Virus record (IMG/VR): IMGVR_UViG_3300045135_003292 | Coordinates: 1 to 24,230 of that record | Length of the DNA stretch: 24,230 nucleotides | Strand: one strand, 5' to 3' | Origin: a virus | In this document: piece after piece, positions 1-19,111 of the stretch | Position numbering within the stretch: position 1 is the first letter of the stretch | Layout: each line of letters starts with the position of its first letter | Made by a program: the position numbers and the translations under genes | Notes under the pieces: generated by a model | Seen by the model: only the letters and a program-made list of their open reading frames with translations | What the model was told of the DNA's origin: nothing | Databases searched by the model: none

Positions 1-209
1 CCAGAAGATCCAGAGGTTCCAGAGGTTCCAGAAGAACCAGATGTACCAGCGGTTCCTGCGGGACCTTCGGGACCAGTAGGACCTACGTTGCCATCAGCTC
101 CAGATGTACCAGAAGTTCCTCCGGGGCCTTGCGGACCTTCGGGACCAGTAGGACCTATGTTACCGTCAGCTCCAGACGTGCCAGATGTACCAGATGTACC
201 AGAGGAGCC
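1..209 (-). repeat. Collagen-like tripeptide-coding repeats
   Basis: On the minus strand this stretch encodes Gly-x-y triplets. Two near-identical copies of a unit of the form GTSGTSGADGN(I/V)GPTGPEGP are followed by GTAGTSGSSGTSG-type triplets. At DNA level it appears as repeated ccaga(t/g)gt-type 9-base units. The array is coding, continues past the left edge, and would be prone to length change by recombination or slippage. Confidence 0.85.
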
Positions 210-851
210 TTCTACGTCAGAAAGTACAGAATTAGTATCTCCTAAATCAAAAGCCCTTACTTCAATCTGAGAATCTGTTTTTGGGGCTTCTACGAACTTT
301 AATCCAGTAAGGGTACCATCAACAGTATAGTCTATTGTGGGGTCGTTAACTAGACCATCTACAGAAACTATAAGAGACTTTTCATTGCTTACCGAAAATG
401 GTAAAGCGTAACCTGTTGTTGAGCCATCTCCGTCATAGCGAACGCTGTTAACAACTAAGCCAAATTTTATTCCACTACGATAAATATCTCCCCAAAAATT
501 AAAATGACCAGAGACATCTAAAGGATACTGTGGGGAATTATTGTTTACTCCAAAGTATTTGTTTACGTCGTCGTAATATAAGCCAGTTCCGCCATCAAAA
601 TAAACTCCATCAATTCCCTGAGTGCCTGTATAGTAAGAAAGATAACCAGAAACTCCAGCTGCATTCTCGGCTATATTACCTGCTCCGCCTCCGCCTCCGC
701 TAATTTCTTGCCAAGACCCGGCTTGTTTTAAGTAAATTTTTAAGGTATCGGTCGCAAAATAGTTTGCTCCGTTCGCAGCATCAGTTAGAACACTTGATTT
801 TTCTGCATCAGTGCCTACAAATTTATCTCCTACGTACCTTTTAACCGACAT
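1..851 (-). CDS. Collagen-like tail fibre protein, N-terminal part (runs off left edge)
   Basis: Read on the minus strand from the ATG at 851, the frame stays open to the window edge (283 complete codons); the rest of the gene is outside. The first ~50 residues (MSVKRYVGDKFVG, then a TDTLKIYLK segment and SWQEI) resemble the N-termini of many marine phage fibres. A Gly-rich linker lies at ~52-58, beta-rich segments at ~60-130, and a second beta-rich module at ~135-205 containing PLDVSG-like and DYTVDGTLTGL-like strings. From residue ~215 the protein is a G-x-y array, with GTSGTSG blocks alternating with GPTGPEGP blocks, as in collagen-like trimeric fibres. The preceding gene ends 9 bases upstream. 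No Shine-Dalgarno is visible, but a copy of the TTAGTGTAAWT motif sits 7 bases before the start. The role is inferred as a host-contacting or decorating fibre; the receptor is unknown. Confidence 0.8.
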   Translation of the reverse strand, partial: MSVKRYVGDKFVGTDAEKSSVLTDAANGANYFATDTLKIYLKQAGSWQEISGGGGGAGNIAENAAGVSGYLSYYTGTQGIDGVYFDGGTGLYYDDVNKYFGVNNNSPQYPLDVSGHFNFWGDIYRSGIKFGLVVNSVRYDGDGSTTGYALPFSVSNEKSLIVSVDGLVNDPTIDYTVDGTLTGLKFVEAPKTDSQIEVRAFDLGDTNSVLSDVEGSSGTSGTSGTSGADGNIGPTGPEGPQGPGGTSGTSGADGNVGPTGPEGPAGTAGTSGSSGTSGTSGSS

Positions 852-858
852 TAGAAAT

Positions 859-869
859 AATTACACTAA
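859..869 (-). promoter_or_regulatory. Candidate promoter/operator motif TTAGTGTAATT before the fibre gene
   Basis: Read on the minus strand this is TTAGTGTAATT, a 10/11 match to the two TTAGTGTAAAT copies in the divergent region at 15527-15559. It points toward the fibre gene and ends 7 bases before its ATG. It overlaps the last codons of the upstream heptosyltransferase gene (TTA GTG TAA), so part of the similarity could be coding coincidence. A phage-specific promoter element is inferred from position and orientation; no sigma-70 boxes are convincing. Confidence 0.4.
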
Positions 870-2015
870 TTTGTTTATTTCATTTATAACTTTATTGGAA
901 GAAATAGACTTAGAGCATTCAAAATCTTTGTTTTTGGGGCACCAATTCCAGTCCCCTCTGTCAAATAGATGATTTGTGTCATGCCAGCAGCTATTGCAAA
1001 CATCTTCGTTGATAAGTCTATGAGGCGTATGAAACTCATGGAAAGATCCAGTAAAACCAGATATAAGTATGACTTTTTTATTTAAGCCCCAAGCAAGCCA
1101 GCTCATACCCGAGCTTAAACCTATAAAAAATTCACATCCTTTTATTAAAGATGATGCTTCTAAAGTATTGTTTATTTCTGGGTGAATTACATTTTTTAAT
1201 TCTGGTAAATCCATCCAAGGTAGCTTTTCCCTTTGGACAAGTACGACTTTATAGCCAATAGAATTTAAATGATCTACAACATCTTGCCAGCCATTTTTGT
1301 TTTGCCAGTGTTTGCATCCGGCTGTTGAAGAATTAGATATACATACATATTTTTGACCTTCTAGAAAATTGATTTTTGGGGGGTCGTCTATTTTACATTT
1401 TATCTCTGGGCTATTTTTCATTCCAAGTTGGTCAGCTCCAATTTGATGCAACGGTAGCTTTCTCCAGTCAGTGGGATGATGGTTGCTGATTTTGTCCATA
1501 TAGACTCCTATCCACCACTCGTAGTGAACCCGATGCGAGCCAGCATTAGGTTCGAAAAAGTTTATTTGTGGGTAAGAGTTCTTAAATAAATGATTATGAA
1601 AAGTAGATACGTATAAATTACAGTTGTGAGTTTTACGGAATTTTTCTACCTGAGGAATCCAAGCAATGGTATCACCAACCGATTTGGAATCAAAAACAAC
1701 ATTTACATTTTTACCATTTAAATTAAGTTCATGATTAACTATTAATTCATCATTCTTAAAAACTTCTACCCTCCAATCTTTATAATAAAGCTCATTAGTA
1801 GAAAGCCAACAGTTTTCTGAAATCGTGTTTGAACAAACAGTAGCTCCAGAACTTCTATCTATAAAATTTATTTTATATTTAGCTCCAGTGGATCGGTTAT
1901 TTATAACCTCTACTTTGGCACTTCTATGGAAATTAATTAATATTTTTTCTTTATTTTCTAGAAAATTATTTTTATTAAAATCCGTGTTTTCGTATTCTTT
2001 AAGAAGGTTGTCCAT
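861..2015 (-). CDS. TibC/Aah-type protein O-heptosyltransferase (BAHT family)
   Basis: The 384-residue protein matches the bacterial autotransporter heptosyltransferase plan. A beta-rich N-terminal domain (~25-100) is followed by a GT-B core. The segment at ~104-156 reads VNVVFDSKSVGDTIAWIP and on to a YVST..H.LF....PQI pattern typical of the family; Asp115 in the GDT motif is the likely catalytic base by family analogy. A second Rossmann-like half (~220-330) contains the GLSSGMSWLAWGL segment. The C-terminus carries Cys340, Cys343, Cys359 and Cys367, matching the four-Cys iron-binding finger of TibC; the first three share its CxxC-x15-C spacing as I recall it. Family members transfer heptose from ADP-heptose to serines of beta-helical adhesins. 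Here the neighbours are phage fibre genes, so a virion protein is the inferred acceptor. The start overlaps the upstream gene by 17 bases. Confidence 0.85.
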   Translation of the reverse strand: MDNLLKEYENTDFNKNNFLENKEKILINFHRSAKVEVINNRSTGAKYKINFIDRSSGATVCSNTISENCWLSTNELYYKDWRVEVFKNDELIVNHELNLNGKNVNVVFDSKSVGDTIAWIPQVEKFRKTHNCNLYVSTFHNHLFKNSYPQINFFEPNAGSHRVHYEWWIGVYMDKISNHHPTDWRKLPLHQIGADQLGMKNSPEIKCKIDDPPKINFLEGQKYVCISNSSTAGCKHWQNKNGWQDVVDHLNSIGYKVVLVQREKLPWMDLPELKNVIHPEINNTLEASSLIKGCEFFIGLSSGMSWLAWGLNKKVILISGFTGSFHEFHTPHRLINEDVCNSCWHDTNHLFDRGDWNWCPKNKDFECSKSISSNKVINEINKLV

Positions 2016-2991
2016 TTTTTAGTAATTTTAAAAAGCTATACAAAATTTTACATATTTCAAACCAGTTTCTTCTAACAGCAAACCCTCTAGCTGCTTGAAC
2101 AGAATCCTCCCATTTATCTATTACCTCCTTAAAAGCACTGGCTATTGAACTAAAGTTTGAATTACAATGATATATAGCATTGTCTCTATCTCCGAAGCCC
2201 TTAGCTATTGTTGATATAACGGGCATTCCTGTAGACATTGCATTTAAATAATGAGAGCTTAAGCCTTCAAAGTTCCGTTGCCTGAGGTCAAGAAGTATGT
2301 CGTGATTTTTTAGAAAATCAACATCCCCTTTAGATTCTTGAAAGATAGTCTGTCTTGAATAGGATGTAGAATCACATATAATGCTGCATTTTGAATTTGC
2401 TTCAAAAAATTTATGTTCTGTGTTATCGAAAAAACTGCAACCATTATTTAAAAAAGTTATAGACAATCCAAATTTGTTGGCAAATTTATTTGCTAGTACA
2501 TAATTCAAGAAGTCTTCCCCTTGTTCTCCATTTTCACCCATGCATAAAAACTTAGTTTCAGATGGTTTTATCTTCCCTCTCTTGATAGATAGTAGCGAAG
2601 AATTATGAGTATACCCCCAAGAGATATAAATCATTTTATTCTTATACTGCTTAAATACCTCTATCCAATCTAAAGATCGGCACACAGTGAACAGTGATTT
2701 TTCTATGGCATTATTGCAGTCCAAAAAAGCGTGAGAATCTACATTGACCGCTTCAAATTCATTAAGGAAAAATACATAATTTTCTATACCAGCATTTATT
2801 AAAGATAAAGCGTCAGAAATTTTGTAAACAAAAAAGAAGTCAGTTTCCCACCAGTTTTTCTCCACTGCTTCTTGAATTTGCGTCATGCAGACTTCCCCAA
2901 CCATTCCTGTAAATTCATTAAAATGAGCTGAAACTAAATTTTCTGTATCTAGCCCATTCATTGGGGACGGTTTAACAATATGAATTTTCAT
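1999..2991 (-). CDS. GT4-like (GT-B fold) glycosyltransferase
   Basis: This 330-residue protein is recognised mainly from its C-terminal half. A NHDILLDLRQRNFEGLSSHY segment (~229-248) is followed by LNAMSTGMPVIST (~249-261), which is the GT4 donor-binding region. In the usual EX7E motif the first Glu is present (Glu242), but the second position is Asn250, so donor contacts may be altered or activity reduced. The N-terminal half (~1-200) is divergent. No membrane segment or signal peptide is seen, so it probably acts in the cytoplasm. Its ATG overlaps the preceding stop by one base (TAATG), and its own end overlaps the heptosyltransferase gene by 17 bases, which implies coupled translation inside the sugar cassette. 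The donor and acceptor sugars cannot be inferred. Confidence 0.7.
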   Translation of the reverse strand: MKIHIVKPSPMNGLDTENLVSAHFNEFTGMVGEVCMTQIQEAVEKNWWETDFFFVYKISDALSLINAGIENYVFFLNEFEAVNVDSHAFLDCNNAIEKSLFTVCRSLDWIEVFKQYKNKMIYISWGYTHNSSLLSIKRGKIKPSETKFLCMGENGEQGEDFLNYVLANKFANKFGLSITFLNNGCSFFDNTEHKFFEANSKCSIICDSTSYSRQTIFQESKGDVDFLKNHDILLDLRQRNFEGLSSHYLNAMSTGMPVISTIAKGFGDRDNAIYHCNSNFSSIASAFKEVIDKWEDSVQAARGFAVRRNWFEICKILYSFLKLLKNGQPS

Positions 2992-3785
2992 TATATGTCT
3001 AAGTATTTATGTTTTTTAAGTGAAGCAAGTTTTTCTTCTAAACCTATAGGATCTAGCCCTAGTATGTGGTCAGCTATTTGTCCTGAAGTCAAACCAGCCC
3101 AATCCACAGGGTTCCTGAAAGACTCGTATTGCTTCCACCAATGTTCCCTAATTAAACCTTGGTCTTGCTTTAAATGATGACCAAATTTATCTAGACCATA
3201 CTCTTTCATTGAGTATCTACCTACGCGATAACTGGCGTAGTACCCTACATCGTCTTTCCAAGTAAATTCTTTAGAAGAGAGGTCGGGGATATCGAATTTG
3301 TTTTCAGATTCTAAATTATAAGCTGTTTTGTGGATTGGGTCTTTAAAATATGCTTCAGGTGGGCAAACTCGAACATTAGCTTGACCCAGTTGATGCAAGA
3401 AAGAATAAAATTTAGTAAATACAAAAACATTTGCATTTGTTTTATTTTGATATTGTATGCATTTATCTAACCAAATCCTAGCTTCATAAAGATCGTCAGT
3501 GTCTAAAATTATGGCCACATTTTTTTGCGAGTCATTATATCGATGGCTTGAAACAAGCCGGAGACCCTCTTTATCATTGTTTTGGAAAATATTAATAAAC
3601 CAATTGGTATGCCATTCTCTAAATATACCATATGTGCAATTACCCTTTAGAATTAGATCTAATAGAAACCTAGGACTAGAATAGTCGCCCATATAAAATT
3701 CACCGTACTCGACGAGAAACTGTTCGTCTCCAGTATCTCTAAGTTCTATGAAAGGGCCTTGATTGAAAGAATAATTAAATTTCAT
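2991..3785 (-). CDS. Unknown 264-residue protein related to the N-terminal half of the TibC-like enzyme
   Basis: I do not recognise a named family. By eye, residues ~5-145 follow the N-terminal half of the heptosyltransferase at 861-2015. Both have an N-terminal beta domain ending in a W-x-I/V-x-(I/V)-F strand, then KNVAIILDTDD (compare KNVNVVFDSKS), then TNANVFVFTKFYSFL (compare HNCNLYVSTFHNHLF), then a Pro-containing strand. The second Rossmann half and the cysteine cluster are missing, and the GDT motif is not kept. The C-terminal ~90 residues are aromatic-rich and end in NPVDWAG....GLDPIGLEEKL. It is joined to both neighbours by one-base TAATG overlaps. It may be a non-catalytic partner or a divergent enzyme; a GT-A enzyme using the LDTDD string is a weaker alternative. 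Confidence 0.55.
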   Translation of the reverse strand: MKFNYSFNQGPFIELRDTGDEQFLVEYGEFYMGDYSSPRFLLDLILKGNCTYGIFREWHTNWFINIFQNNDKEGLRLVSSHRYNDSQKNVAIILDTDDLYEARIWLDKCIQYQNKTNANVFVFTKFYSFLHQLGQANVRVCPPEAYFKDPIHKTAYNLESENKFDIPDLSSKEFTWKDDVGYYASYRVGRYSMKEYGLDKFGHHLKQDQGLIREHWWKQYESFRNPVDWAGLTSGQIADHILGLDPIGLEEKLASLKKHKYLDI

Positions 3786-5341
3786 TACTTAAAATAAATA
3801 AAATCTTCTGCCACAAGAGCATCTATCATTCCGCTTTCTAAATGAGCAAAAGCCTCAGCCGGGGAATCGATGATGGGCTCGCCATGACCATTAAATGAAG
3901 TGTTTAACAAAACTGGGATATTAGAAATTTTATCATAAGAGTCTAAAACCTCATAAAACTTTTTATTCCTGTCTGGATAAACCAACTGAGGTCTTGCGGT
4001 ACCATCGCACTTGTGAACGACAGCGGGTATCTTATCAACCCATTCAGGTTTTGTTGAATAGCACATAGTCATGAACTCTGAAGTCATGTGAGACTTTTCA
4101 ACATTAAAAATTTCATTAGCTTTGTCATATTTAACGAACGGAGCGAAAGGCATTATTTCATGTCTTTTTAATCTTTCGTTTAAGTTCTTATGAGTATCAG
4201 GATCTGTAGCTTTTACAATTATGCTTCTAGCACCGAGGGCTCTTGGCCCATGTTCAAAGCGTCCTTGAAACCATCCTACTATTTTTCCAGAATCTAGCAT
4301 TTCAGCTAAACGATCTGGGTCGTAAGGATCTCTATGAAATTTTAGACCAACTTTTTGTATGTCATCATTTGAATAACATGACCCCAAAAAAACGTTTTCA
4401 AGCCTTTTGGTTTTTCTTTCTCCTTTATGGTACGCTAAAGTTAAAGCTGCTCCTAGAGATAGCCCTTCATCTCCCATCGGAGGGAACACGAAAACTTCTT
4501 CTACCCAAGGAGTCTCATTTATTTTTTGATTGAGTTTGACGTTAGCAAATAAGCCTCCAACTAAAACCACCTTTTTGTACTCTGGGTATATTGAGTTTAA
4601 GTGGTTAAGAAGTTTGCAAAACTCATTTTCAATTACTAGTTGTACATTGTGTGCTACTTTAGATTTTGTTTCCAAAGAAGCATTTGACAAGTTTAATTTA
4701 TTTAAAAGTAAAGCGGTCTTTCCCGGTGAGTCGCCCGGAGAAAAACTAAAATTATTATTATAATAAAATATTTTATTTAATTTTCTATAAAGAGATTCGT
4801 CATATTTACCGTGAGCGGCTAAGCCGGTAACTTTCCCTTCGTCTTTTAACATCTTCCAGCCAAGGCAAACAGTAGTGTGAGCATACATTTGACCAGCCGA
4901 AGCTGCTGACCACAAAGGTATACTTTTTATTAAATTAAGCTTGTTGTCCTCGGCTAAATAAATTCTACCAAAGTCTTTATCTCCCCCTCCATCGTAAGAC
5001 ACAACGATAGTTTTTTCTTTAAACCCAGAAGTCAAGTACGCTCCGTAAGCATGACAAGCGTGGTGATTGACGACTGTCACTTTGCTTTCATCAACCCCTA
5101 AGCCTTTTACAAACCCATTACATATTGGAGCTGCAACCGCTATATCATCAAAGTCCTCAATAGATAGGGCATTTTCTTCTAGGATTCTTTTTACCGCAAG
5201 ATCAGGGTTTCTACCAAAATCATTACCTGACTTAACGCGAACTAATCTTTCTTCTTCGTAGCAGCAAATGATTTCTCCGTTTTTAACGTAAGAGGCGGAA
5301 GCGTTATGACTACCTCCAAATATTCCTAAAATTTTGCTCAT
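3785..5341 (-). CDS. O-carbamoyltransferase, NodU/CmcH/TobZ family
   Basis: The 518-residue protein has the full family layout. The N-terminus starts ILGIFGGSHNASAS with YEEERLVRVK at ~28-37. The metal-binding HHACHA motif is at 93-98, SYDGGGD at 115-121, GGLFANVKLNQKI at ~262-274 and DEGLSLGAA at ~291-299 (Kae1-like domain). The YrdC-like C-terminal domain has GPRALGARSI at 365-374 and LNTSFNGHGEPI at ~479-490. Such enzymes make carbamoyl-adenylate from carbamoyl phosphate and ATP and pass the carbamoyl group to a hydroxyl, typically on a sugar. Length is normal and no key motif is missing. It sits between the triple glycosyltransferase (4-base ATGA overlap) and the 264-residue protein (1-base overlap), so its likely substrate is a sugar built or transferred by this cassette. 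Confidence 0.92.
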   Translation of the reverse strand: MSKILGIFGGSHNASASYVKNGEIICCYEEERLVRVKSGNDFGRNPDLAVKRILEENALSIEDFDDIAVAAPICNGFVKGLGVDESKVTVVNHHACHAYGAYLTSGFKEKTIVVSYDGGGDKDFGRIYLAEDNKLNLIKSIPLWSAASAGQMYAHTTVCLGWKMLKDEGKVTGLAAHGKYDESLYRKLNKIFYYNNNFSFSPGDSPGKTALLLNKLNLSNASLETKSKVAHNVQLVIENEFCKLLNHLNSIYPEYKKVVLVGGLFANVKLNQKINETPWVEEVFVFPPMGDEGLSLGAALTLAYHKGERKTKRLENVFLGSCYSNDDIQKVGLKFHRDPYDPDRLAEMLDSGKIVGWFQGRFEHGPRALGARSIIVKATDPDTHKNLNERLKRHEIMPFAPFVKYDKANEIFNVEKSHMTSEFMTMCYSTKPEWVDKIPAVVHKCDGTARPQLVYPDRNKKFYEVLDSYDKISNIPVLLNTSFNGHGEPIIDSPAEAFAHLESGMIDALVAEDFIYFK

Positions 5342-8238
5342 CTTTTTGAATCTAAATAATCTATACAGGGATTCATTTTATCGGGGTTTTTCATTCCGTG
5401 GAACAACTTTACTAAACTTTTATCTTTTTTGAAACATATCCAGTTTTTATTGGCACCTGCATCTTCGTGAATATCTATTTGAACTCTACTCATTGATTCA
5501 TTCCAATCCTTTTCGACATCACAATTTTCAAAGTATTTTATAGTATCTAAATTGACAGTATTCAAAAAAGTTTGAGGTAAAGTTTTATTGTATTTTTCTT
5601 TCCAAAGTAAAACATTTATTATTGTTTCTTCGTGATACGGGGCATAGAGCTTCCATTCTCTAATTATAAATTCAGAATTACATAGCCTATTCCATTCTTC
5701 TATAAAGTCAGTACAATTTTTATTAAATAGAATTGTATTAGTTTGCCTGTACCAAACTCTAGATTCCTCTTCAACTTTAAGATTGTCCATTAGAGGCTTT
5801 TCCAAAAAAGCTTGGCCATCTTGAAGCATCATGTAAAAAGGTCCCTCTGTCAATAATGGATAGTTTTCGATATCTTTAAAGTAATCAAATATGGTATCAA
5901 AATTAGAGTTAGCTATCATATCTGTATCAAGATAAATGCCTTTCTCTAATCCTCTATCAAGGCTATCTAAAATTACTCTAGATTTTTGGCATAAAGTTTT
6001 ATATGTTATTTCATCATAAGCATCTTTAAAGAAGTCTCCTTTCGAGTCAGTCACTAAGGTAGGTTCAGAATCAAAGTCTGTTTCAAATGGTATTTTGATA
6101 AGATTAGGATAATCGAAATCAGCTTCACAGTTTTGCGTATATAAAATTACTTTATGCTCCGAAAATTTAAGTAAACTTTTAACTAAACATTCAGCCGTTT
6201 GCAGGTATTGTTTGGTGGTGTGGGTAATAATCGCGGTAGAAGGAAAATCCGAAACCATATTTTTTATTAGCTCACAATTTTCGTTTATGCTATCAGAAAG
6301 AAAAGACACATTAGACTTGTTGTCATAAGCGCCCATATATACTTCTAAGTTTCTAAGCGCTAATTTCATTCCCCAAGATAAGGCTTCCTTGATCACTATA
6401 GGATTAGTTTCCCTGTCGGTCGCATGACCTTTAGAGGTAAAAACAAAAAGATCCATACATTGATAAAATTTTTCAACGTCATCTCTTTCTCCCCAGACTT
6501 TACAATTGTCAGGTTGGTTCTCTATTAAGGGTTTCCAATATTGGTCAAAGTTTCCCGCTAAGTTGCCGACGAAATGAAACTGTATCTTTTCGCCATTAAG
6601 TTTTTTCGCGTACTCGAATACCTCTGCTTGATTCTTTCTCGGGGTGAATAAGCCAACGTTTAGCACGTGTTTATATGAGGGATCTAGACCTAAAGCCTTT
6701 AAGGATTCCTCTCTATTTGGCCTTTCTTTTAATTCTATGGGGTATTCAATTACCGCCTGAGGAACCCCGAAAGATTTGTACTTTTCTAAATGCCATTTAC
6801 TAATCCATATAAATTTATCTGGTAAATATTTTTTATATTGTAAAGGGTCAAAACCAGAATCATGAGAAGTTTCAAATATCTTATATGTTCTGTCTTTTGA
6901 ATAAAGTTTTTCAGCAAGTTCATCGGGGAACCCTCCGTACATATACTTCTCAGGGACTTCCTCTAAATGCACAAAATCTGGTTGAAAGGAATTTATAATA
7001 TCCATCAACCTCATTCTTTTGTCTTTGTGCTCTTCTGGGGATTCGTTCAAGTAGCCTAACGATGCAAATCTATTTTTAGGAATGAGATCTATTATCTTCT
7101 GTCTTTGAACAATAAATGCATCGCTATACAAAGTAAACTCGACTACAAACACATCGCATCCTTGCTTCAACAACGTCTCCAACCTTTTTCTAAAAACTTC
7201 AGGCATTCCTCCCGTAGAAAGATGTTCAGCTACCAATAAGACCTTTGTCTTTGGGGAGGATTCTTTTACTAACTCAAGTTTGTTATTTGGGTTCCATAGA
7301 GCAAGGCACTTTTGGAAAACTTGCATAACATTTGGATGGCACTCAAAAGTTTTCTTCTTTTCTAAACACGATATTAACGGCGGGACTCCATGTATTGAAC
7401 CCCATTCAGCGATACCATACTTTACATCAGACCCGCAAAATAGACCACAATCTCCCCTTATGAAAGAATATTTATAAATTTGAGAACTATGTCTAAATGG
7501 AGCTCTTAGAACTGGGTCAATAGAAGAACCTAATTGGATAATTTGAGCATCAGTTGTCCCCGCTAAATGCAATAGGCCAGAATCCATAGTTATAAAACAA
7601 GAACTATTTTCTATTACATGCCAGCAATCGCTTAAAGAAAGTTGATTAGTTAAATCTAACCCCAGACTAACATCTAAGCTAAAAACATTTTTATCTTGCT
7701 TGCCCCAAAAGCCAGTTTCGTGATCATCTTTCCCTACAAGTACGACTGGGATTCCAGTAAGAGCCAGCTTGGATATTAAGCTTTGAAAGTTGCTTTGTTC
7801 CCAAGTTCTCGAAGGCCAAGTTGATCCAGCATGAACACAAACGTAATTGTCTGGCAATCTTGATCTATCGAAATTAGCTTCAGGAAAAAACTCGCAAGTC
7901 ATCTCCATGGGTTTCAGCATCATGCCTAACTCAGTGGCGTGAAACTGACGTATGTCATAGGTATTGTGCTTTCTTTCTGGCCTGTCAGAGCCATGACTGG
8001 CAATCTCGAAAAAAGTTTTAAACACTTCGAATTTTTCAGAAGCTTCCTTTGCACACTCTTCCTCCTCTTTGTCGAAGCTCCTAACAGACGCTACGTAAGG
8101 ACTGCGCTCAAAAACTTTAGGGTGGTGCGTTACGACATGGATTTTCTCATTGTAGCAAGTAAACAGTTTGCGGAGTATTGGGGTAGCGCAAATTGTATCC
8201 CCCAAAGCTCTTGAGCCTATCAGGTAACATTTTTCCAT
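5338..8238 (-). CDS. Three-domain glycosyltransferase fusion: GT9 + GT4 + GT-A (GT8-like)
   Basis: From the ATG at 8238 the protein has 966 residues. An in-frame TTG at 8259 would add seven, but the ATG is preferred because it is preceded by AGG and begins directly with the first GT9 strand (MEKCYLIGSRALGDT). Domain 1 (~1-315) is heptosyltransferase-like (GT9), with VCVHAGSTWPSRTW and the TMDSGLLHLAG donor motif at ~217-227. It also has four cysteines at ~264, 268, 291 and 300. Domain 2 (~331-650) is GT4-like, with GLFTPRKNQ at ~529-537 and a complete EX7E starting at Glu610. Domain 3 (~667-955) is a GT-A domain with the metal-binding LDTD at ~770-773 and a late LFHG motif as in GT8-type enzymes. 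One polypeptide could therefore add three sugars in sequence. No membrane segments are seen. Confidence 0.88.
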   Translation of the reverse strand: MEKCYLIGSRALGDTICATPILRKLFTCYNEKIHVVTHHPKVFERSPYVASVRSFDKEEEECAKEASEKFEVFKTFFEIASHGSDRPERKHNTYDIRQFHATELGMMLKPMEMTCEFFPEANFDRSRLPDNYVCVHAGSTWPSRTWEQSNFQSLISKLALTGIPVVLVGKDDHETGFWGKQDKNVFSLDVSLGLDLTNQLSLSDCWHVIENSSCFITMDSGLLHLAGTTDAQIIQLGSSIDPVLRAPFRHSSQIYKYSFIRGDCGLFCGSDVKYGIAEWGSIHGVPPLISCLEKKKTFECHPNVMQVFQKCLALWNPNNKLELVKESSPKTKVLLVAEHLSTGGMPEVFRKRLETLLKQGCDVFVVEFTLYSDAFIVQRQKIIDLIPKNRFASLGYLNESPEEHKDKRMRLMDIINSFQPDFVHLEEVPEKYMYGGFPDELAEKLYSKDRTYKIFETSHDSGFDPLQYKKYLPDKFIWISKWHLEKYKSFGVPQAVIEYPIELKERPNREESLKALGLDPSYKHVLNVGLFTPRKNQAEVFEYAKKLNGEKIQFHFVGNLAGNFDQYWKPLIENQPDNCKVWGERDDVEKFYQCMDLFVFTSKGHATDRETNPIVIKEALSWGMKLALRNLEVYMGAYDNKSNVSFLSDSINENCELIKNMVSDFPSTAIITHTTKQYLQTAECLVKSLLKFSEHKVILYTQNCEADFDYPNLIKIPFETDFDSEPTLVTDSKGDFFKDAYDEITYKTLCQKSRVILDSLDRGLEKGIYLDTDMIANSNFDTIFDYFKDIENYPLLTEGPFYMMLQDGQAFLEKPLMDNLKVEEESRVWYRQTNTILFNKNCTDFIEEWNRLCNSEFIIREWKLYAPYHEETIINVLLWKEKYNKTLPQTFLNTVNLDTIKYFENCDVEKDWNESMSRVQIDIHEDAGANKNWICFKKDKSLVKLFHGMKNPDKMNPCIDYLDSKR

Positions 8239-8277
8239 GTACCTGAAAGTATATCTCAAAAATGGAAAAAAATCAAA

Positions 8278-8910
8278 TTATAAAGGAAAAGATGATAAAA
8301 TAATACCAGTAGCTAGATAAGAATCCGTAGATTGTCCTGAATGAGTATCTAAAGCCACATATCCATATTCAGAATCTTTAGCCGTGTATAGCTTAGACTC
8401 ATAATCATCTCCTGAATATAGATAAATGTTTTCGTTTACATGCAGATCATCTAAATACGGAATGAAATCTCCAGTTACTGTTTCGTGCCTTAAGGTTCTT
8501 GCTACTGCTGTAGACCCCGGTTTAGCCGCATCTCCTGAAAACCCAGATGTTACAACCCTGAATTGTAGTCTCTGAGGAAATCTGGGGAAGTCGCTTGGGA
8601 TCACTCCGCTGATCGCTACCTTATTAGCTTCTGGTACGTAGCTTTTATCGTGGTCAGGAACAAGCCCAGTATTAAAGTTTATACCCGTGGAAGACGAGAG
8701 CACCTCTACATTTGTTAAGGAGTTTTCACTCCCGACGTTATCGTCAGCAAATTCTGGGTGCAGTAGGAAAAGTTCTGTAACGCCGCTAAGTCTAGCCCCC
8801 GTTATAACAAATTGTGTTCCTAACGGGCCCTTAGAAGGAGAGAAGCCCGAAACGCTTGGCCCTTCGTGTTTATTTTCTCCAAAAAAGAATGTATTAAAAT
8901 TCAAAGGCAT
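8278..8910 (-). CDS. Small IPT/TIG-domain virion protein
   Basis: This 210-residue protein has an IPT/TIG-like segment at ~18-125 (VSGFSPSKGPLGTQFVITGA, then LSGVTELFLL, and a later ISGVIPSDFP strand) similar to the repeats in the giant protein just upstream, whose stop is 2 bases before this ATG. The C-terminal ~75 residues are beta-rich (YLDDLHVNENIYLYSGDDY) and match nothing I recognise. The tight junction suggests it extends or caps the TIG array of its neighbour. It has no signal peptide or membrane helix. A structural tail role is inferred from context only. Confidence 0.6.
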   Translation of the reverse strand: MPLNFNTFFFGENKHEGPSVSGFSPSKGPLGTQFVITGARLSGVTELFLLHPEFADDNVGSENSLTNVEVLSSSTGINFNTGLVPDHDKSYVPEANKVAISGVIPSDFPRFPQRLQFRVVTSGFSGDAAKPGSTAVARTLRHETVTGDFIPYLDDLHVNENIYLYSGDDYESKLYTAKDSEYGYVALDTHSGQSTDSYLATGIILSSFPL

Positions 8911-13734: not shown

Positions 13735-14589
13735 CTAGAAATATTTGTTTGCTATTATTTGAGTTCTTACTATATCAGATACGTTAGCGCTAACATTAGT
13801 TGATTCTATATGGCTACCAGATAAGTCTATGGTTAAGGAAGCATCTGGTTTATCATTTCGGCAAGCTAGTAGTACTGGAGCTAAAGTAAGTTGACCTGAG
13901 AAAGTGCCAGTATTAGCCAAGTTTGATTTCTGACCAGTTATGCCGCTAACATGAGCATTATATAATTCTGTTTTAATTGTCGAGACGCTTTCCTTAGCAG
14001 CCATAAAGTCAACTTGACTTGGGACTTGTTTATTTATGACGTACATAGGCTCATGCCTAGCTTGAAAACTGTACTGAAGACCTAAAGTAGGATGCGCTTT
14101 AGGATGAGTCCCAGATTCAACTAAGTAAGTTGACCAGCCGTGGGTAATCGAATCAGTAGTATTGTAATCGATTGACGAAGTATGCCTACTAAATTGACCA
14201 GCGTTTTTACCTGTCACTAAATCGAAACACGTAAATTGAGCACTTGCTGATAAAGACTGATTCGGATTAGAATTAAAAGAATATTTATTTAAATAAAAAT
14301 CACCAGTTATGCCAGCAAATGATATTCTGGTTTTACTTGGGTTATGATTTTTAAGAAGCCTAACAACTTCAAAACAAGGCTCTGCCTCTGACTCTAATAG
14401 ATAACTCACAGAAAGAGATGCTTCTGCCGGGCCGTTTGGACTTACAGATATAACTCCTCTACGTCCAGCCGAATAAACTTCCGAGGCTTTATTGTTGATG
14501 GATAAGGAGCAACTTTGAGCTAAGAGACCAGTAAAATTAGCTGCTCCTTTAGGCTTAACACCAATGTCTATTTCATCGAAATAAATCAT
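13735..14589 (-). CDS. Tail-tube-like two-domain structural protein (paralogue 2)
   Basis: This 284-residue beta-rich protein has two similar halves. Half one (~1-125) ends with NPNQSLSASAQFTCFDLVTG. Half two (~165-284) begins with LQYSFQARHEPMYVINKQVP. The same two landmarks, an (A/S)AQF or AQI strand and an EP/RP-x-Y hinge, occur in the gene before it and in the N-terminus of the gene after it. Its start overlaps the previous gene by 4 bases (ATGA), and the next ATG lies one base after its stop. I infer a tail-tube or tube-decoration role from the fold-like pattern and location, not from a named family match. The Ser/Thr content is high. There are no membrane or signal segments. Confidence 0.6.
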   Translation of the reverse strand: MIYFDEIDIGVKPKGAANFTGLLAQSCSLSINNKASEVYSAGRRGVISVSPNGPAEASLSVSYLLESEAEPCFEVVRLLKNHNPSKTRISFAGITGDFYLNKYSFNSNPNQSLSASAQFTCFDLVTGKNAGQFSRHTSSIDYNTTDSITHGWSTYLVESGTHPKAHPTLGLQYSFQARHEPMYVINKQVPSQVDFMAAKESVSTIKTELYNAHVSGITGQKSNLANTGTFSGQLTLAPVLLACRNDKPDASLTIDLSGSHIESTNVSANVSDIVRTQIIANKYF

Positions 14590-15518
14590 AGTTTCTTTTT
14601 GTCTATTAAGGCCCTGTAACTTAAAGTGGAAGTAACGTTGCCATCTATATTAGTTCCTTGAGATTGAGAAACCAAAAGTAAATCAGTAAAACTATATGTT
14701 TGTAACAGACCATCAGTATTGTGATCAAAAAGCTGTAAAGTTAAGTTTTCTGTATGAGGAGAACATGGGAAATCTCTTAATATTTTATGGTCATATCCAG
14801 TCTTAGATTTCATGTTATGAGCATCCATATCTATTTGAAAGGTACATTGAACTGGAATTGGAAAATTTCTACATATTTTTATAGGAGTTTTTTCTCCTAG
14901 TCCATAAACGGGGCGCCTCGGAACGCCTATAGTTATAGAGAAAGAGTTAAGTCTATTAGTTTCAAAATCATCCATGCTTAGAGTCAAGCTCCTAGGGTCA
15001 GCTATTTGAAGAGTGAAATCTTTGCCATTATCCGCTGCGCTGGTTGTAGTAGTTTGAGATGCTATTTCACTACTAAAAGTCGTAGACTCTGCGTTAGAGG
15101 AAGTTAAAGGGCCCATGTTTCCAAATACTGAGAATTGAGCATCAATTCTAGGAATTTGGCCAACAGCGCAATTGAAAGTATAATTTGAGAGTACGCCCGA
15201 AGTGAATCCAATGTCTAAAGTATCAACACTAGTAGCTTTACCTTCCTCTACTTCATGAAGATATCCATTGGCGAGAAAGTCTCCAGTATACGAGATATAT
15301 GGATCATTATTAACAAAAAGAGCAGAAGTTGAAAAGCTGCCTACGTAAGCCCCGTTAGCTATTTCGGGATAGACTCCCGTTTGACCAATATGCTGCAATG
15401 GGCTAGCAGGAACAGCATAAGACATTTGTACGCTTTGCGTTCCTCTAACCTCTGTCGATGAGAGAAAAAATCTTTGATTCTCTCTCCTTAACCTTAATGG
15501 ACCCGGAATATCTGCCAT
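14586..15518 (-). CDS. Tail-tube-like two-domain structural protein (paralogue 1)
   Basis: This 310-residue protein is the first gene of the minus-strand block. Half one (~24-138) contains VQMSYAVPASP and ends in QIPRIDAQFSVFGN. A Thr/Ser-rich linker spans ~140-165. Half two (~175-310) has FSITIGVPRRPVYGLGEKTP and ends with a strand-rich SYRALIDKKKL. The layout parallels the next two genes. The ATG at 15518 is preceded by only a weak CGGA, and by the TTAGTGTAAAT motif ending 8 bases upstream. A structural role in the tail is inferred. It could equally be a tail-completion or baseplate hub protein; no enzyme motif is visible. Confidence 0.6.
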   Translation of the reverse strand: MADIPGPLRLRRENQRFFLSSTEVRGTQSVQMSYAVPASPLQHIGQTGVYPEIANGAYVGSFSTSALFVNNDPYISYTGDFLANGYLHEVEEGKATSVDTLDIGFTSGVLSNYTFNCAVGQIPRIDAQFSVFGNMGPLTSSNAESTTFSSEIASQTTTTSAADNGKDFTLQIADPRSLTLSMDDFETNRLNSFSITIGVPRRPVYGLGEKTPIKICRNFPIPVQCTFQIDMDAHNMKSKTGYDHKILRDFPCSPHTENLTLQLFDHNTDGLLQTYSFTDLLLVSQSQGTNIDGNVTSTLSYRALIDKKKL

Positions 15519-15526
15519 TCCGAATT

Positions 15527-15537
15527 ATTTACACTAA
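15527..15537 (-). promoter_or_regulatory. Candidate promoter/operator motif TTAGTGTAAAT (minus-strand block)
   Basis: Read on the minus strand this is TTAGTGTAAAT, ending 8 bases before the ATG at 15518. It is the left arm of the inverted repeat. Its orientation into the gene, like the other two copies, supports a transcription role. It lies very close to the start codon, so a leaderless or very short-leader transcript is possible. Confidence 0.5.
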
Positions 15538-15548
15538 TATTTACCTAT

Positions 15549-15559
15549 TTAGTGTAAAT
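15549..15559 (+). promoter_or_regulatory. Candidate promoter/operator motif TTAGTGTAAAT (tail-tip block)
   Basis: This is the right arm of the inverted repeat, pointing toward the M-like gene and ending 18 bases before its ATG. A Shine-Dalgarno-like AGGA at 15566-15569 lies between motif and start, leaving room for a short leader. Confidence 0.5.
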
Positions 15560-15577
15560 TCTATTAGGATTAAGGAA

Positions 15578-16231
15578 ATGGCTAATATATACGAGACAAA
15601 GAGTTTAAATAGACGAGGTCAAGAACTTTATGAATTGAACCAAATCTATGACAAAAACGATGTCGTTAAAGTAGTTACAGAGTTTGTGAACTCCTCTGGC
15701 ACTACGGTAACTGCTACTAGCAATACTATGTCCGACGACGGGAGTGGCAATCCAATTGTACAAAAAACTTTTTATTATTACTACGCTAGAAATGATTTGT
15801 CTTCAGGAGCTCACGGATCAAACGACTTAAATCCAACAATATCAGAAACAGCTTGGGGAGGAATAAAACAAACAAATAGAGGTAAAATACCAGAGTTCTT
15901 TTGGAAACCTTCATACGCTTCATCTGTAAACCACCAACCAAACATAGCAAAAATAGCATTTGGAGATGGGTACGAGCAGAGAATCTCTGATCATATAAAT
16001 AGTGATTTAGTAAAATTTAATTTAGTTTTCGAAAAAAGAAGAAAAAAAGAAGCTACAGCTATACTTCATTTTTTGCACGTTCGAAAGTCAGTAGAAAGTT
16101 TTTTATTTTCTCCTCCTGAGCCGTATAATCCTACAAAGCAATCACGTTTTGTTTGCAGGACTTGGTCAGCAAATTTTAATTTTTTTGATAACTATACCGT
16201 AAACGCACAGTTTGAAGAAGTAGCAGAATAA
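15578..16231 (+). CDS. M: Lambda gpM-like minor tail protein with N-terminal extension
   Basis: The start is set at the ATG at 15578, which has AGGA 8 bases upstream and avoids overlap with the divergent gene; this gives 217 residues. Residues ~112-217 match lambda M: IAKIAFGDGYEQRI (~123-136), an EATAILHFL stretch (~158-166), SFLFSPPEPYNP (~174-185) and a FVCRTWSANF...AQFEEV ending. M protein is part of the lambda tail-tip complex. The N-terminal ~110 residues are extra compared with lambda M (about 109 residues in total). They contain a YDKNDVV... FYYYYARNDL... NP...W pattern that resembles a small carbohydrate-binding (CBM5/12-like) module, as in the next gene. It is the first gene of the tail-tip block; the L gene follows after one base. 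Confidence 0.85.
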   Translation: MANIYETKSLNRRGQELYELNQIYDKNDVVKVVTEFVNSSGTTVTATSNTMSDDGSGNPIVQKTFYYYYARNDLSSGAHGSNDLNPTISETAWGGIKQTNRGKIPEFFWKPSYASSVNHQPNIAKIAFGDGYEQRISDHINSDLVKFNLVFEKRRKKEATAILHFLHVRKSVESFLFSPPEPYNPTKQSRFVCRTWSANFNFFDNYTVNAQFEEVAE

Positions 16232-16232
16232 T

Positions 16233-17339
16233 ATGCCAAGAGATTTGTATAGAGACGAGGCTAGAGTAGCCAGCAAAGCCCTAATAAAAGAAACTTTTCA
16301 ATTAGGACCATCTGCTGTTATTAGTCTGTTTGAGATAGACTTATCCGATATATTTATAGACAAACAAATAATTTTCGAAAAAGACGATAGCAATGAATTA
16401 GATAGAATATTAAGGTTTCATAATAATAATACTTTTACGGAACAAAGAAAATCTATTTTCTGGAGAGGCAGTCAATACTATCCAGCTCCTTTCAGAATGA
16501 CTGGTTTTGAGACTACAATGCAAGGCACGATCCCAAAACCTAAAATGGCATTATCAGCAGGAGAAGCTGGTACAAAAGCCATGGCAATCCTAAAAAGCAA
16601 ATTCAGGGAGCTGGATGACTTAGTTGGAGCTAAGGTAACTCGATATAAAACATTTGCTAAATTTTTAGATTTTGAAAATTTTAAAAGTGGCGATGTTCCT
16701 CAAGGATTTCAACCCGGAGTAAACGCTGAATTTCCAAGAGAAATTTTCTATATAGAAAGAAAATCTGTTGAAAATAAATTCACAATAGAGTTTGAACTTT
16801 CTTCGAATATAGACGTAGAAGGCACAAGGCTACCTAAAAGAATTATATTAGCTAATAGATGCCCTTGGCAATACAGAGGAGAGGGTTGCTGTTATGAGTA
16901 TAACGCAACTTGGAATGAAACTCTTCATGGCTCAAAGTCAGACTCGGATAACCCCACTGGAGGAGTATTGCCTTACAATTTTCAAGCTCCTCCAGTAGCG
17001 AATGAAATTGGACATAAAATTGCTGACATACTTAAAATCCCACAAGCAGATATAAAATTAAAAATTTCACAAGATGGTGAAGGCGGAACTGCTAAATGGG
17101 GGCCAAACACTGAATACGTAAAAGGGGACGCAATCTTTGTAGAAAAAAATGGGATTAATTACTATTTTGTCGCAAGAGGCCCCGTGCCTAAAGGCAACAG
17201 ACCTCCTAATGATAAATATTGGATAGCTGATCTATGCACTAAAGACATACAAGGATGTAAGCTTAGATTTTCTAGAGACGTATCGGTACCTTTAAGATTT
17301 GGAGGATTTCCATCAGCAGAAAAACAGAGGCAGAACTAA
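16233..17339 (+). CDS. L: Lambda gpL-like minor tail protein with Fe-S cysteines and CBM5/12-like insert
   Basis: The 368-residue protein retains the L-family cysteine pattern: Cys210-x8-Cys219 (CPWQYRGEGC) and Cys335-x6-Cys342 (CTKDIQGC). These match the spacing of the four cluster-binding cysteines of lambda L, and the protein ends with LRFGGFPS as family members do. In lambda the two pairs are close together; here ~115 residues separate them. That insert contains a CBM5/12-like module at ~288-332 (W..N.EYVKGD, YYFVARGP, PPNDKYW). The N-terminal ~200 residues carry the usual structural domain, including a YIERKSVENKFTIEFELSS segment. It is a tail-tip component acting next to M and K. The stop overlaps the next start by one base. 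Confidence 0.88.
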   Translation: MPRDLYRDEARVASKALIKETFQLGPSAVISLFEIDLSDIFIDKQIIFEKDDSNELDRILRFHNNNTFTEQRKSIFWRGSQYYPAPFRMTGFETTMQGTIPKPKMALSAGEAGTKAMAILKSKFRELDDLVGAKVTRYKTFAKFLDFENFKSGDVPQGFQPGVNAEFPREIFYIERKSVENKFTIEFELSSNIDVEGTRLPKRIILANRCPWQYRGEGCCYEYNATWNETLHGSKSDSDNPTGGVLPYNFQAPPVANEIGHKIADILKIPQADIKLKISQDGEGGTAKWGPNTEYVKGDAIFVEKNGINYYFVARGPVPKGNRPPNDKYWIADLCTKDIQGCKLRFSRDVSVPLRFGGFPSAEKQRQN

Positions 17340-17668
17340 TGAAGCTCAAAGATAGCTTATATATAAAAATGAAGAAGCACTCAGAGAAGTTCCAAGACTC
17401 TGAGTCTTGCGGCCTTTTATATAAAGACTTCTCTAGCGGGGAAATTGAATTTGAAGCTTGTAGCAATGTGCATGTTGATCCTAAAAGTTTTTTCGAGATA
17501 TCCCCTAAGGAGTATTTAAAAGCTTCTTCAAAAGGAGAAATCACTGCCGCTTTTCATTCGCATCCATTCACGGAAGGACCTTCTCCTCAAGATGTAAATA
17601 TGTCAAAAAATTTACAAATACCTTTTGTTATATATTCTCTTAAAACTAAAAAATTTTACTATACTTAA
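17339..17668 (+). CDS. Stand-alone JAMM/MPN-domain (Mov34/PAD-1-like) protein
   Basis: This 109-residue protein carries a complete JAMM metalloprotease set: Glu22 (in ESCGLLY), His73 and His75 (HSHP), Ser82 and Asp85. The spacing from the second His to the Ser is six residues, one fewer than the usual seven, as also in the next gene. It lies between L and K with one-base TAATG overlaps on both sides. Lambda K has a single JAMM domain, so this is an extra copy, probably from tandem duplication. Known JAMM enzymes cleave isopeptide or C-terminal bonds of ubiquitin-like folds; the I protein of such phages has a ubiquitin-like N-terminal domain and is a plausible target. The tail function is otherwise unknown. 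Confidence 0.85.
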   Translation: MKLKDSLYIKMKKHSEKFQDSESCGLLYKDFSSGEIEFEACSNVHVDPKSFFEISPKEYLKASSKGEITAAFHSHPFTEGPSPQDVNMSKNLQIPFVIYSLKTKKFYYT

Positions 17669-18417
17669 TGAGACTAAATTCAAAACAAAAAAATATCATA
17701 AAAGAACATGCGTTAGAGCAAATACCTAACGAATGTTGTGGTATTATATTAAGTGACTCTCAAGTTGTAAAATGCATTAACCATAGCCCTACTCCTCAAA
17801 CTACATTTCACATAAAGTACAACACTTTAAAAGATATTGACCAAGATGAGATTGTAGCCTTTTACCATTCCCACCCTTCTGGGCTACAGTTTAGCATGAC
17901 TGACAAATACTTTTCCCACAAGAGAAATATAACAGCTGTACTGTATTCTGTACAGGAAGACGATTTTAATTTCTACGAACCTACTTCATATTTTGAACTA
18001 CCTTTAATAGGGCGAGACTTCATAACAAATGAAGTAGATTGTATAACTTTAGTAAGGGACTACTATGGCAGATATCTAAACATAGACATTCCAGATATAA
18101 TTCATCCAGTCAGGAGCGTAGAGCCTGCTAATTGGATGGATCATAAAGAATTTTGGAGCTACAACAGGAGAACTAATAGAGAATTTGTTAACTTATTTGA
18201 AAGTAGGGGTTTTAAGGAAGTAGATTCTCTCAAAAAACATGATTTAATTCTAAGTGATAACGGAACAGTAAAAGCATTCTCTCACTGCGCAGTATATATT
18301 GATGATTCAAAAGTAGTACATCATCCTTACCCGGGAGAGTCTATTCAAGAAACACTAAGAAGTTTTGAAAACAATTCAAAAATATTATACATGAGACACC
18401 AAAACATGATGTCATGA
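17668..18417 (+). CDS. K: Lambda gpK-like tail-tip peptidase (JAMM + NlpC/P60)
   Basis: This 249-residue two-domain protein has a JAMM domain at ~1-112 with Glu22 (NECCGII), His67, His69, Ser76 and Asp79. The NlpC/P60 domain at ~115-249 has catalytic Cys125 (EVDCITLVRDYY) and His206 (FSHCAVYI). This is the lambda K arrangement. The NlpC/P60 part is expected to cut peptidoglycan peptides during DNA entry, while the JAMM part is thought to process the ubiquitin-like part of I during assembly. All catalytic residues are present. It overlaps the preceding gene by one base and the I gene by four (ATGA). Confidence 0.92.
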   Translation: MRLNSKQKNIIKEHALEQIPNECCGIILSDSQVVKCINHSPTPQTTFHIKYNTLKDIDQDEIVAFYHSHPSGLQFSMTDKYFSHKRNITAVLYSVQEDDFNFYEPTSYFELPLIGRDFITNEVDCITLVRDYYGRYLNIDIPDIIHPVRSVEPANWMDHKEFWSYNRRTNREFVNLFESRGFKEVDSLKKHDLILSDNGTVKAFSHCAVYIDDSKVVHHPYPGESIQETLRSFENNSKILYMRHQNMMS

Positions 18418-19094
18418 AAAATTTAGTAAATATAAAATTACATGGGGCGCTAGGCAAAGGAATGAAAAAGTCTAGCTGGAAACTTGCTGTGTCTAGTGTT
18501 GCAGAAGCGATTAACGCTATAAATAATATGACCGGAGACAGATTAAAAAAACTCCTGATAAAGTCAACAAAAAAGAATGTAAAATATAATGTTTTGATTA
18601 ATGATAGAGATTTTGAGCATGATGGGCCAGTGGATATTGAATTTCCAGAAAATATAGCAAACTCAGAACTAGTGATTAAAGGAGACTATATTGAAAAAAT
18701 AGATATAATCCCAGTAGTAGAAGGAGCGGGAGATGGTGCAAATATATTTACTATGATATTAGGTGTTATTCTAATAATCATAGGCGTAATGATGGTTATA
18801 GGTACATTGGGGGGCGGAGCACCTCTCGGATACGCTTTTATAGCGGCAGGCCTAGCTCTTTTTGCTGCAGGGTTAGCAAACCTATTATCTAAACCGCCAA
18901 AGCCCGACGATGTCGGAACTAGTTTAGGGTCCTACATGTTTAATGGCCCGGCAAACAATACGGAAGAAGGGAACCCTGTTCCTATCGCATACGGAAGACT
19001 AATGCTGGGAAGCCAAATCATATCTTCTACTTACGATGTTGATTACTTATCTGCAGACCCGGCAGACACAGATTATGGTTTCCACGGCCAATAG
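18414..19094 (+). CDS. I: Lambda gpI-like tail assembly protein
   Basis: The 226-residue protein begins with IKLHGALGKGM and a helix containing VAEAINAINNM, the ubiquitin-like (TAPI) N-terminal domain of I proteins (~1-100). A Gly-rich linker (VEGAGDGAN) leads to two hydrophobic helices at ~111-131 and ~137-157. The C-terminus holds the conserved YMFNGPANN and GNPVPIAYGRLMLGS segments (~174-201). I is needed for tail-tip assembly, and the N-terminal domain is the proposed substrate of the JAMM peptidase. Here two JAMM genes precede it. The gene is translationally coupled to K by the 4-base overlap and is followed by J after a 17-base gap. Confidence 0.9.
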   Translation: MKNLVNIKLHGALGKGMKKSSWKLAVSSVAEAINAINNMTGDRLKKLLIKSTKKNVKYNVLINDRDFEHDGPVDIEFPENIANSELVIKGDYIEKIDIIPVVEGAGDGANIFTMILGVILIIIGVMMVIGTLGGGAPLGYAFIAAGLALFAAGLANLLSKPPKPDDVGTSLGSYMFNGPANNTEEGNPVPIAYGRLMLGSQIISSTYDVDYLSADPADTDYGFHGQ

Positions 19095-19111
19095 AATAGA
19101 TAGAAAAAGAA

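Follow-up and report, generated by a model that had tools for sequence, protein, structure and literature searches.

The DNA analysed here (the window) comprises the 24,230 bases of IMG/VR record IMGVR_UViG_3300045135_003292, from an aquatic phage. From position 15518 downward, its minus strand carries two tube-like genes, the gene of a giant protein, a small TIG-like gene, a five-gene sugar cassette and a fibre gene, with successive spacings of -4, 1, 2, 39, -4, -1, -1, -17 and 9 bases. The features are the following.

1..851, minus: collagen-like tail fibre with GTSG repeats, presumed acceptor (Collagen E=6e-6; tail-fibre PHROGs)
861..2015, minus: TibC-type protein O-glycosyltransferase (GT9-like, iron finger), presumed initiating enzyme (TIGR04414, 280 bits; PDB 4rap, 190 bits)
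1999..2991, minus: GT4-like glycosyltransferase (weak Pfam matches, E=0.03-0.05; Foldseek to PDB GT4 enzymes, E=2.6e-7)
2991..3785, minus: TibC half-protein (18.9 bits to TIGR04414; hhalign to TibC, 98% probability)
3785..5341, minus: O-carbamoyltransferase of the NodU/TobZ type, presumed sugar-capping (Carbam_trans_C E=9e-54; Carbam_trans_N E=1e-30; PHROG 1601, 314 bits)
5338..8238, minus: GT9-GT4 fusion with a possible GT-A third domain (Glyco_transf_9 E=1e-11; Glycos_transf_1 E=2e-9)
8278..8910, minus: small TIG-like tail protein of the same operon (TIG E=0.029; 75% identity in the related contig L003)
8913..13733, minus: giant tail protein of the same operon (no Pfam match; 69% identity in L003)
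13735..15518, minus: two tail-tube-like proteins of the same operon (Phage_tail_2 E=0.035, weak, for the first)
15458..23998, plus: lambda-type tail tip genes M, L, K (two), I and J, given as context (Pfam and PHROG matches)

A preliminary description of this DNA had placed five adjoining, overlapping minus-strand genes at 861-8238, and both these coordinates and the junctions of 1-17 bases or ATGA type are borne out, the overlaps being 4 (ATGA), 1, 1 and 17 bases. Its account of the flanks was half right: the cassette does end 9 bp before the collagen-like fibre, but on the other side it starts 39 bp past the small gene 8278-8910, which separates it from the giant protein. The giant protein itself had been called a TIG protein, a label that is poorly supported: the only TIG match, itself weak, falls in the small gene. 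As part of the tail operon, the cassette would be expected to be co-expressed with the tail genes; a scan for promoters and terminators gave a result no better than shuffled sequences. The fibre is truncated by the contig end, and the portion present holds 10 GTSG motifs.

Both tail-tube-like proteins are conserved in the relatives G008, G011 and G013. Among the tip genes, the lambda K-type JAB domain occurs in tandem, as a short JAB-only protein (17339-17668) and a JAB/NlpC/P60 protein (17668-18417). The giant protein carries short GTAG/GSAG-type insertions at about residues 807-825 and 940-956, the second of which is missing from L003. These insertions might be extra acceptor sites; they also caused a match to the thiocillin RiPP (21.3 bits), which was rejected as spurious.

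Composition and variation of the cassette

The open frame of the fusion gene extends from a TTG at 8259, and translation probably begins at the ATG at 8238, where the L003 homologue begins with the same MEKCYL. Of the GT9-GT4-GT-A architecture described earlier, the GT9 and GT4 domains are well matched, and the C-terminal third bears a weak resemblance to GT-A enzymes (Gly_transf_sug DXD, E=0.085 here and 0.025 in L003). The identities given to the next gene and to the two TibC-related genes are confirmed by Pfam, hhalign and TIGR04414, respectively, the carbamoyltransferase having both the N- and the C-terminal domain of the NodU/TobZ family. The enzyme termed GT4-like is weak by sequence; the best Foldseek matches of its model are all GT4-type enzymes, and because that model is of low confidence (pLDDT 46.5) they are taken as support only. 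Its gene probably serves chain extension.

For the TibC half-protein, structure prediction was uninformative (pLDDT 39.6), and profile comparison was used in its place. In the hhalign alignment it covers TibC columns 25-208, that is, the barrel and N-lobe only, without donor lobe or iron finger, and its catalytic Asp is replaced by a Glu that is conserved in three relatives. The combination of the Glu with the missing elements suggests a non-catalytic binding partner.

The preliminary description had proposed looking for the same gene order in related phages, and L003 retains all of it, from the giant protein through the fibre, so that the arrangement is not due to chance; identity to the window is 68% for the TibC-type enzyme (aligned stretch), 69% for the giant protein and 61% for the TibC half. 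A second relative, L008, retains the set together with an additional short HAD-like gene. This gene, at 9236-9664 of L365 (the same contig as L008), heads the cassette and encodes a 142-residue protein, for which a role as sugar-phosphate phosphatase would suit the pathway. Carbamoyltransferase, TibC half, TibC, GT4 and GT9 also occur together in L348, a contig from a different type of phage, and carbamoyltransferase and TibC in L350, in both cases with GTSG-rich genes nearby. Finding relatives more widely required an alignment, since a scan with the single TibC sequence gave one relative and the alignment scan at least 570 viral ones. Among 87 TibC loci, a GT4 domain is found in 58 and a carbamoyltransferase in only 6, which makes GT4 and TibC the core of the system and the carbamoyl cap that was noted at the outset an accessory. 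Other TibC cassettes hold other sugar-modifying enzymes, judging from L002 (6290-7753), where a GT-A-like domain is followed in one fusion protein by a deacetylase domain of the PIG-L type (E=4e-12), beside a TibC fusion.

The TibC-type enzyme and its sugar donor

Over its full length, the TibC-type enzyme exceeds the curated cut-off of TIGR04414 (200 bits), with a score far above that of every LPS heptosyltransferase model. TibC is known to act on proteins (PMC4358343). The window enzyme retains D115, T231, K235, W306 and C340/C343/C359/C367, which correspond to Asp-110, Thr-226, Lys-230, Trp-305 and the iron-finger Cys-339/342/358/370 of TibC and are nearly invariant across the clade. The catalytic Asp and each iron-finger Cys are present in 79 or 80 of 80 phage sequences; the scan patterns included some of these residues, and the contigs selected by their repeats, which are free of that selection, nearly all retain them.

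The position of TibC Arg-286 is different. It is occupied by Ala-287 in the window enzyme and is variable in the clade, while all nine BAHT enzymes compared have Arg. In TibC this residue contacts adenine, and replacing it by Ala costs the enzyme most or all of its activity (PMC4358343). With Arg-286 lost, heptose is not to be assumed, and ADP-heptose was accordingly rejected as a settled donor. Chemistry and fold are thus conserved, but the donor may have changed in its nucleotide part. In the window, no heptose-synthesis gene was recognised and no autotransporter partner was found, the neighbour of the TibC-type gene being the GTSG fibre.

Association with GTSG repeats in phages and bacteria

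A GTSG-rich ORF occurs in 36-38 of 64 non-redundant TibC loci, with repeat ORFs counted over all frames because GTSG on the opposite strand reads as PEV-type repeats; at nearly half of the TibC loci none lies within reach, partly since contigs end. Compared with random ORFs at these loci, TibC sits nearer to such an ORF, with 18 cases within 1.5 kb where 10.0 would be expected (p=0.0005). In the cultivated Microcystis phage Mel-JY01, TibC has two GTSG-rich ORFs in its vicinity. The reverse test started from contigs chosen only by their repeat, namely a GTSG set of at least 15 kb (n=50) and a set with GPT collagen (n=48). TibC is present in 20/50 of the former and 0/48 of the latter (Fisher P=2e-7), or in 17/29 and 0/19 when only contigs of at least 40 kb are considered (P=2e-5), a control that is imperfectly matched given the G+C of 0.40 in the GTSG set and 0.48 in the GPT set, which also differ in phage type. 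Of the 20 TibC-bearing GTSG contigs, 13 have the enzyme no more than 4.1 kb away from a GTSG-rich ORF, against an expectation of 5.3 (P=5e-5). Many GTSG genes come without TibC, which is absent from 12 of the 29 GTSG contigs that reach 40 kb.

A cleaner control than the GPT set is provided by the family of fibres that share the N-terminus RYxGDxFxG. Within it, GTSG repeats are found in all five contigs with TibC (the window, L003, L008, L018 and L100) and in 0/10 contigs without TibC anywhere on the contig, a comparison that includes some truncated contigs or fibres and spans few lineages (about three with TibC and about five without). The complete fibres match the collagen model and carry a C-terminal Peptidase_S74 chaperone. 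One tail module was encountered in three states: without cassette and without repeats (G008), in the order J-GT4-TibC-repeat fibre (L018), and in the order J-repeat fibre-GT4-TibC (G011). The different gene order of the last two argues against a merely inherited neighbourhood.

Bacterial homologues were found in GTDB genomes by TibC alone. At 11 of the 20 loci obtained, a GTSG-repeat protein that is secreted or resembles a lipoprotein is encoded within 1 kb, and several of the remaining loci resemble phage contigs or are truncated. Some bacterial loci, namely L373 (6539-6919 and 9282-9908), L375 and L376, carry two GTSG-repeat genes at no more than 1.5 kb from the enzyme. The GTDB MAG contig L385 has almost the same gene content as L002, a phage contig, which shows that some apparently bacterial matches are phage; L371, L372, L380 and L384 also look viral.

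In one methanotroph family, TibC occurs in 16 of 237 genomes, at 17 loci. A repeat gene lies within 150 bases of the enzyme at 7 of the 8 highest-scoring loci, and at none of the nine lower-scoring ones. Methanotroph pairs of a TibC homologue and an adjacent GTSG protein include those at L383 and L387. Two loci of the low group reach 654-659 bits to TIGR04414, as expected of true autotransporter enzymes, compared with 261-320 in the GTSG group, and the tree splits the GTSG-associated clade from the true autotransporter enzymes with a support of 1.0. The 200-bit cut-off of TIGR04414 lets in this entire clade under a name that implies an autotransporter substrate. In the methanotroph family, most of the genomes that have true GTS/GSS tandem repeats also have TibC. 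Exceptions exist, such as G558, a counter-example with a GTSG/GSSG-repeat stretch (C298, 4199-4461) and no detected TibC. A class-wide bacterial survey of 369 genomes was thin, with no genome found beyond the seed and one that had been known before.

Interpretation and relation to known systems

The gene content and the genome comparisons make it probable, at roughly 75%, that the phage glycosylates the GTSG repeats of its own collagen-like tail fibre by means of the cassette. The self-glycosylation of a tail appendage proposed in the preliminary description is thus supported and its acceptor narrowed to GTSG, whereas the heptose-primed glycan it envisaged is not upheld, owing to the change of Arg-286 to Ala-287. 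What the enzymes act on, in which order and to what advantage, we infer as follows. The cassette would be a late-expressed, phage-encoded protein O-glycosylation system, in which the TibC-type enzyme adds the first sugar to Ser/Thr of the fibre repeats in the host cytoplasm, probably aided in repeat binding by the non-catalytic TibC half. The GT9/GT4/GT-A fusion and the extra GT4 enzyme would then lengthen the glycan and the carbamoyltransferase would cap it, before the coated fibre is assembled onto the virion. Most likely, the glycan would shield or stiffen the repeat shaft, or tune adsorption.

Similar genes in host-recognition regions of marine phages, glycosyltransferases of pelagimyophages among them, have been read in print as modifiers of the host surface (PMC7029224), and the cassette could accordingly alter the LPS core or O-antigen, blocking superinfection or changing receptors. 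The absence of membrane proteins speaks against this: none of the five cassette proteins has a membrane segment, so the hallmark of host O-antigen seroconversion, a membrane flippase or multi-pass glycosyltransferase, is lacking in the cassette, even if the GT9 enzymes of the LPS core are likewise soluble. Considering also the TIGR04414 score, which by far exceeds that of every LPS heptosyltransferase model, the position inside the tail operon, and the association with a single type of repeat protein, seen in phages as in bacteria, which an action on the host surface leaves unexplained, we judge such an action improbable. Quite unlikely, too, is a mere co-location, in which GTSG fibres and sugar genes gather in hypervariable regions without being substrate and enzyme. 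Fibres and glycosyltransferases do both reside in variable host-recognition regions, and the test and control sets differ in G+C and phage type; yet the fibre-family contrast (5/5 against 0/10), the two-gene TibC/GTSG pairs on bacterial chromosomes and the lack of any TibC link in GPT collagen fibres are hard to reconcile with it.

If glycosylation of the fibre is accepted, the first sugar could still be heptose from host ADP-heptose, as with TibC. The TIGR04414 score over the cut-off and the retained equivalents of Asp-110, Thr-226, Lys-230 and Trp-305 give this variant a real chance, but we lean against it in view of the lost adenine contact, whose mutation to Ala is so damaging in TibC (PMC4358343), and of a window without a recognised heptose-synthesis gene. 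The occurrence of the enzyme next to GTSG repeats in many unrelated phages and in some bacteria points to a recurring system of protein glycosylation. Fibre glycosylation may also be part of a wider pattern, which we propose tentatively and at somewhat under even odds: the TibC-like iron-finger clade would be a dedicated, mobile system modifying collagen-like GTSG repeats of fibres in phages and of secreted proteins and lipoproteins in bacteria, with a donor specificity changed from ADP-heptose and, in this lineage, a fibre shaft coated with a carbamoylated glycan.

Phage glycosyltransferases are usually read as modifiers of DNA or of the host surface; here the acceptor, the GTSG repeat, is predicted from sequence, and the prediction spans at least 570 viral stretches as well as two-gene bacterial units. 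If it is true, many aquatic phages carry sugar-coated fibres, with a bearing on host recognition and virion stability, a readable rule for spotting phage glycoproteins becomes available, and the automatic label 'autotransporter heptosyltransferase' is misleading for the GTSG-associated clade. Phage virion O-glycosylation as such is already known. In the open-access literature searched, outside which most subscription journals lie, no paper was found that describes phage enzymes of the TibC type or their partnership with GTSG repeats, and the pairing of the two appears to be new to that extent.

The closest known enzymes are the TibC/AAH BAHT enzymes (TIGR04414), with which the phage enzyme shares full-length homology, the catalytic Asp, the phosphate- and sugar-contact residues, the iron-finger Cys and the action of a soluble enzyme on a repeat protein. 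It differs in belonging to a separate clade (support 1.0; 261-320 bits, versus about 655 in the two true BAHTs tested), in the loss of the adenine-contact Arg, and in a clade partner that is a GTSG-repeat protein and not an autotransporter. In mycobacteriophages, according to the work of Freeman et al. 2023 as cited in PMC12619734, phage enzymes glycosylate the phage's own virion proteins, as predicted here from genes; the sites reported there are the C-termini of capsid and tail-tube proteins, in contrast to the TibC-type enzyme and fibre GTSG repeats of the present system. Characteristic of phage virion glycosylation, a glycosyltransferase gene lies beside a Ser/Thr-rich virion gene in the window, and this arrangement recurs. 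The carbamoyltransferase is a full-length match to the NodU/TobZ type (PHROG 1601), which is common in cyanophages and is here joined to a TibC cassette. In serine-rich repeat adhesins, GtfA/GtfB glycosylate a low-complexity Ser-rich repeat in the cytoplasm, possibly with an inactive partner, before the glycan is extended. Those enzymes belong to a different family, and the likeness is one of working principle only, in which the TibC half would have a role resembling that of GtfB.
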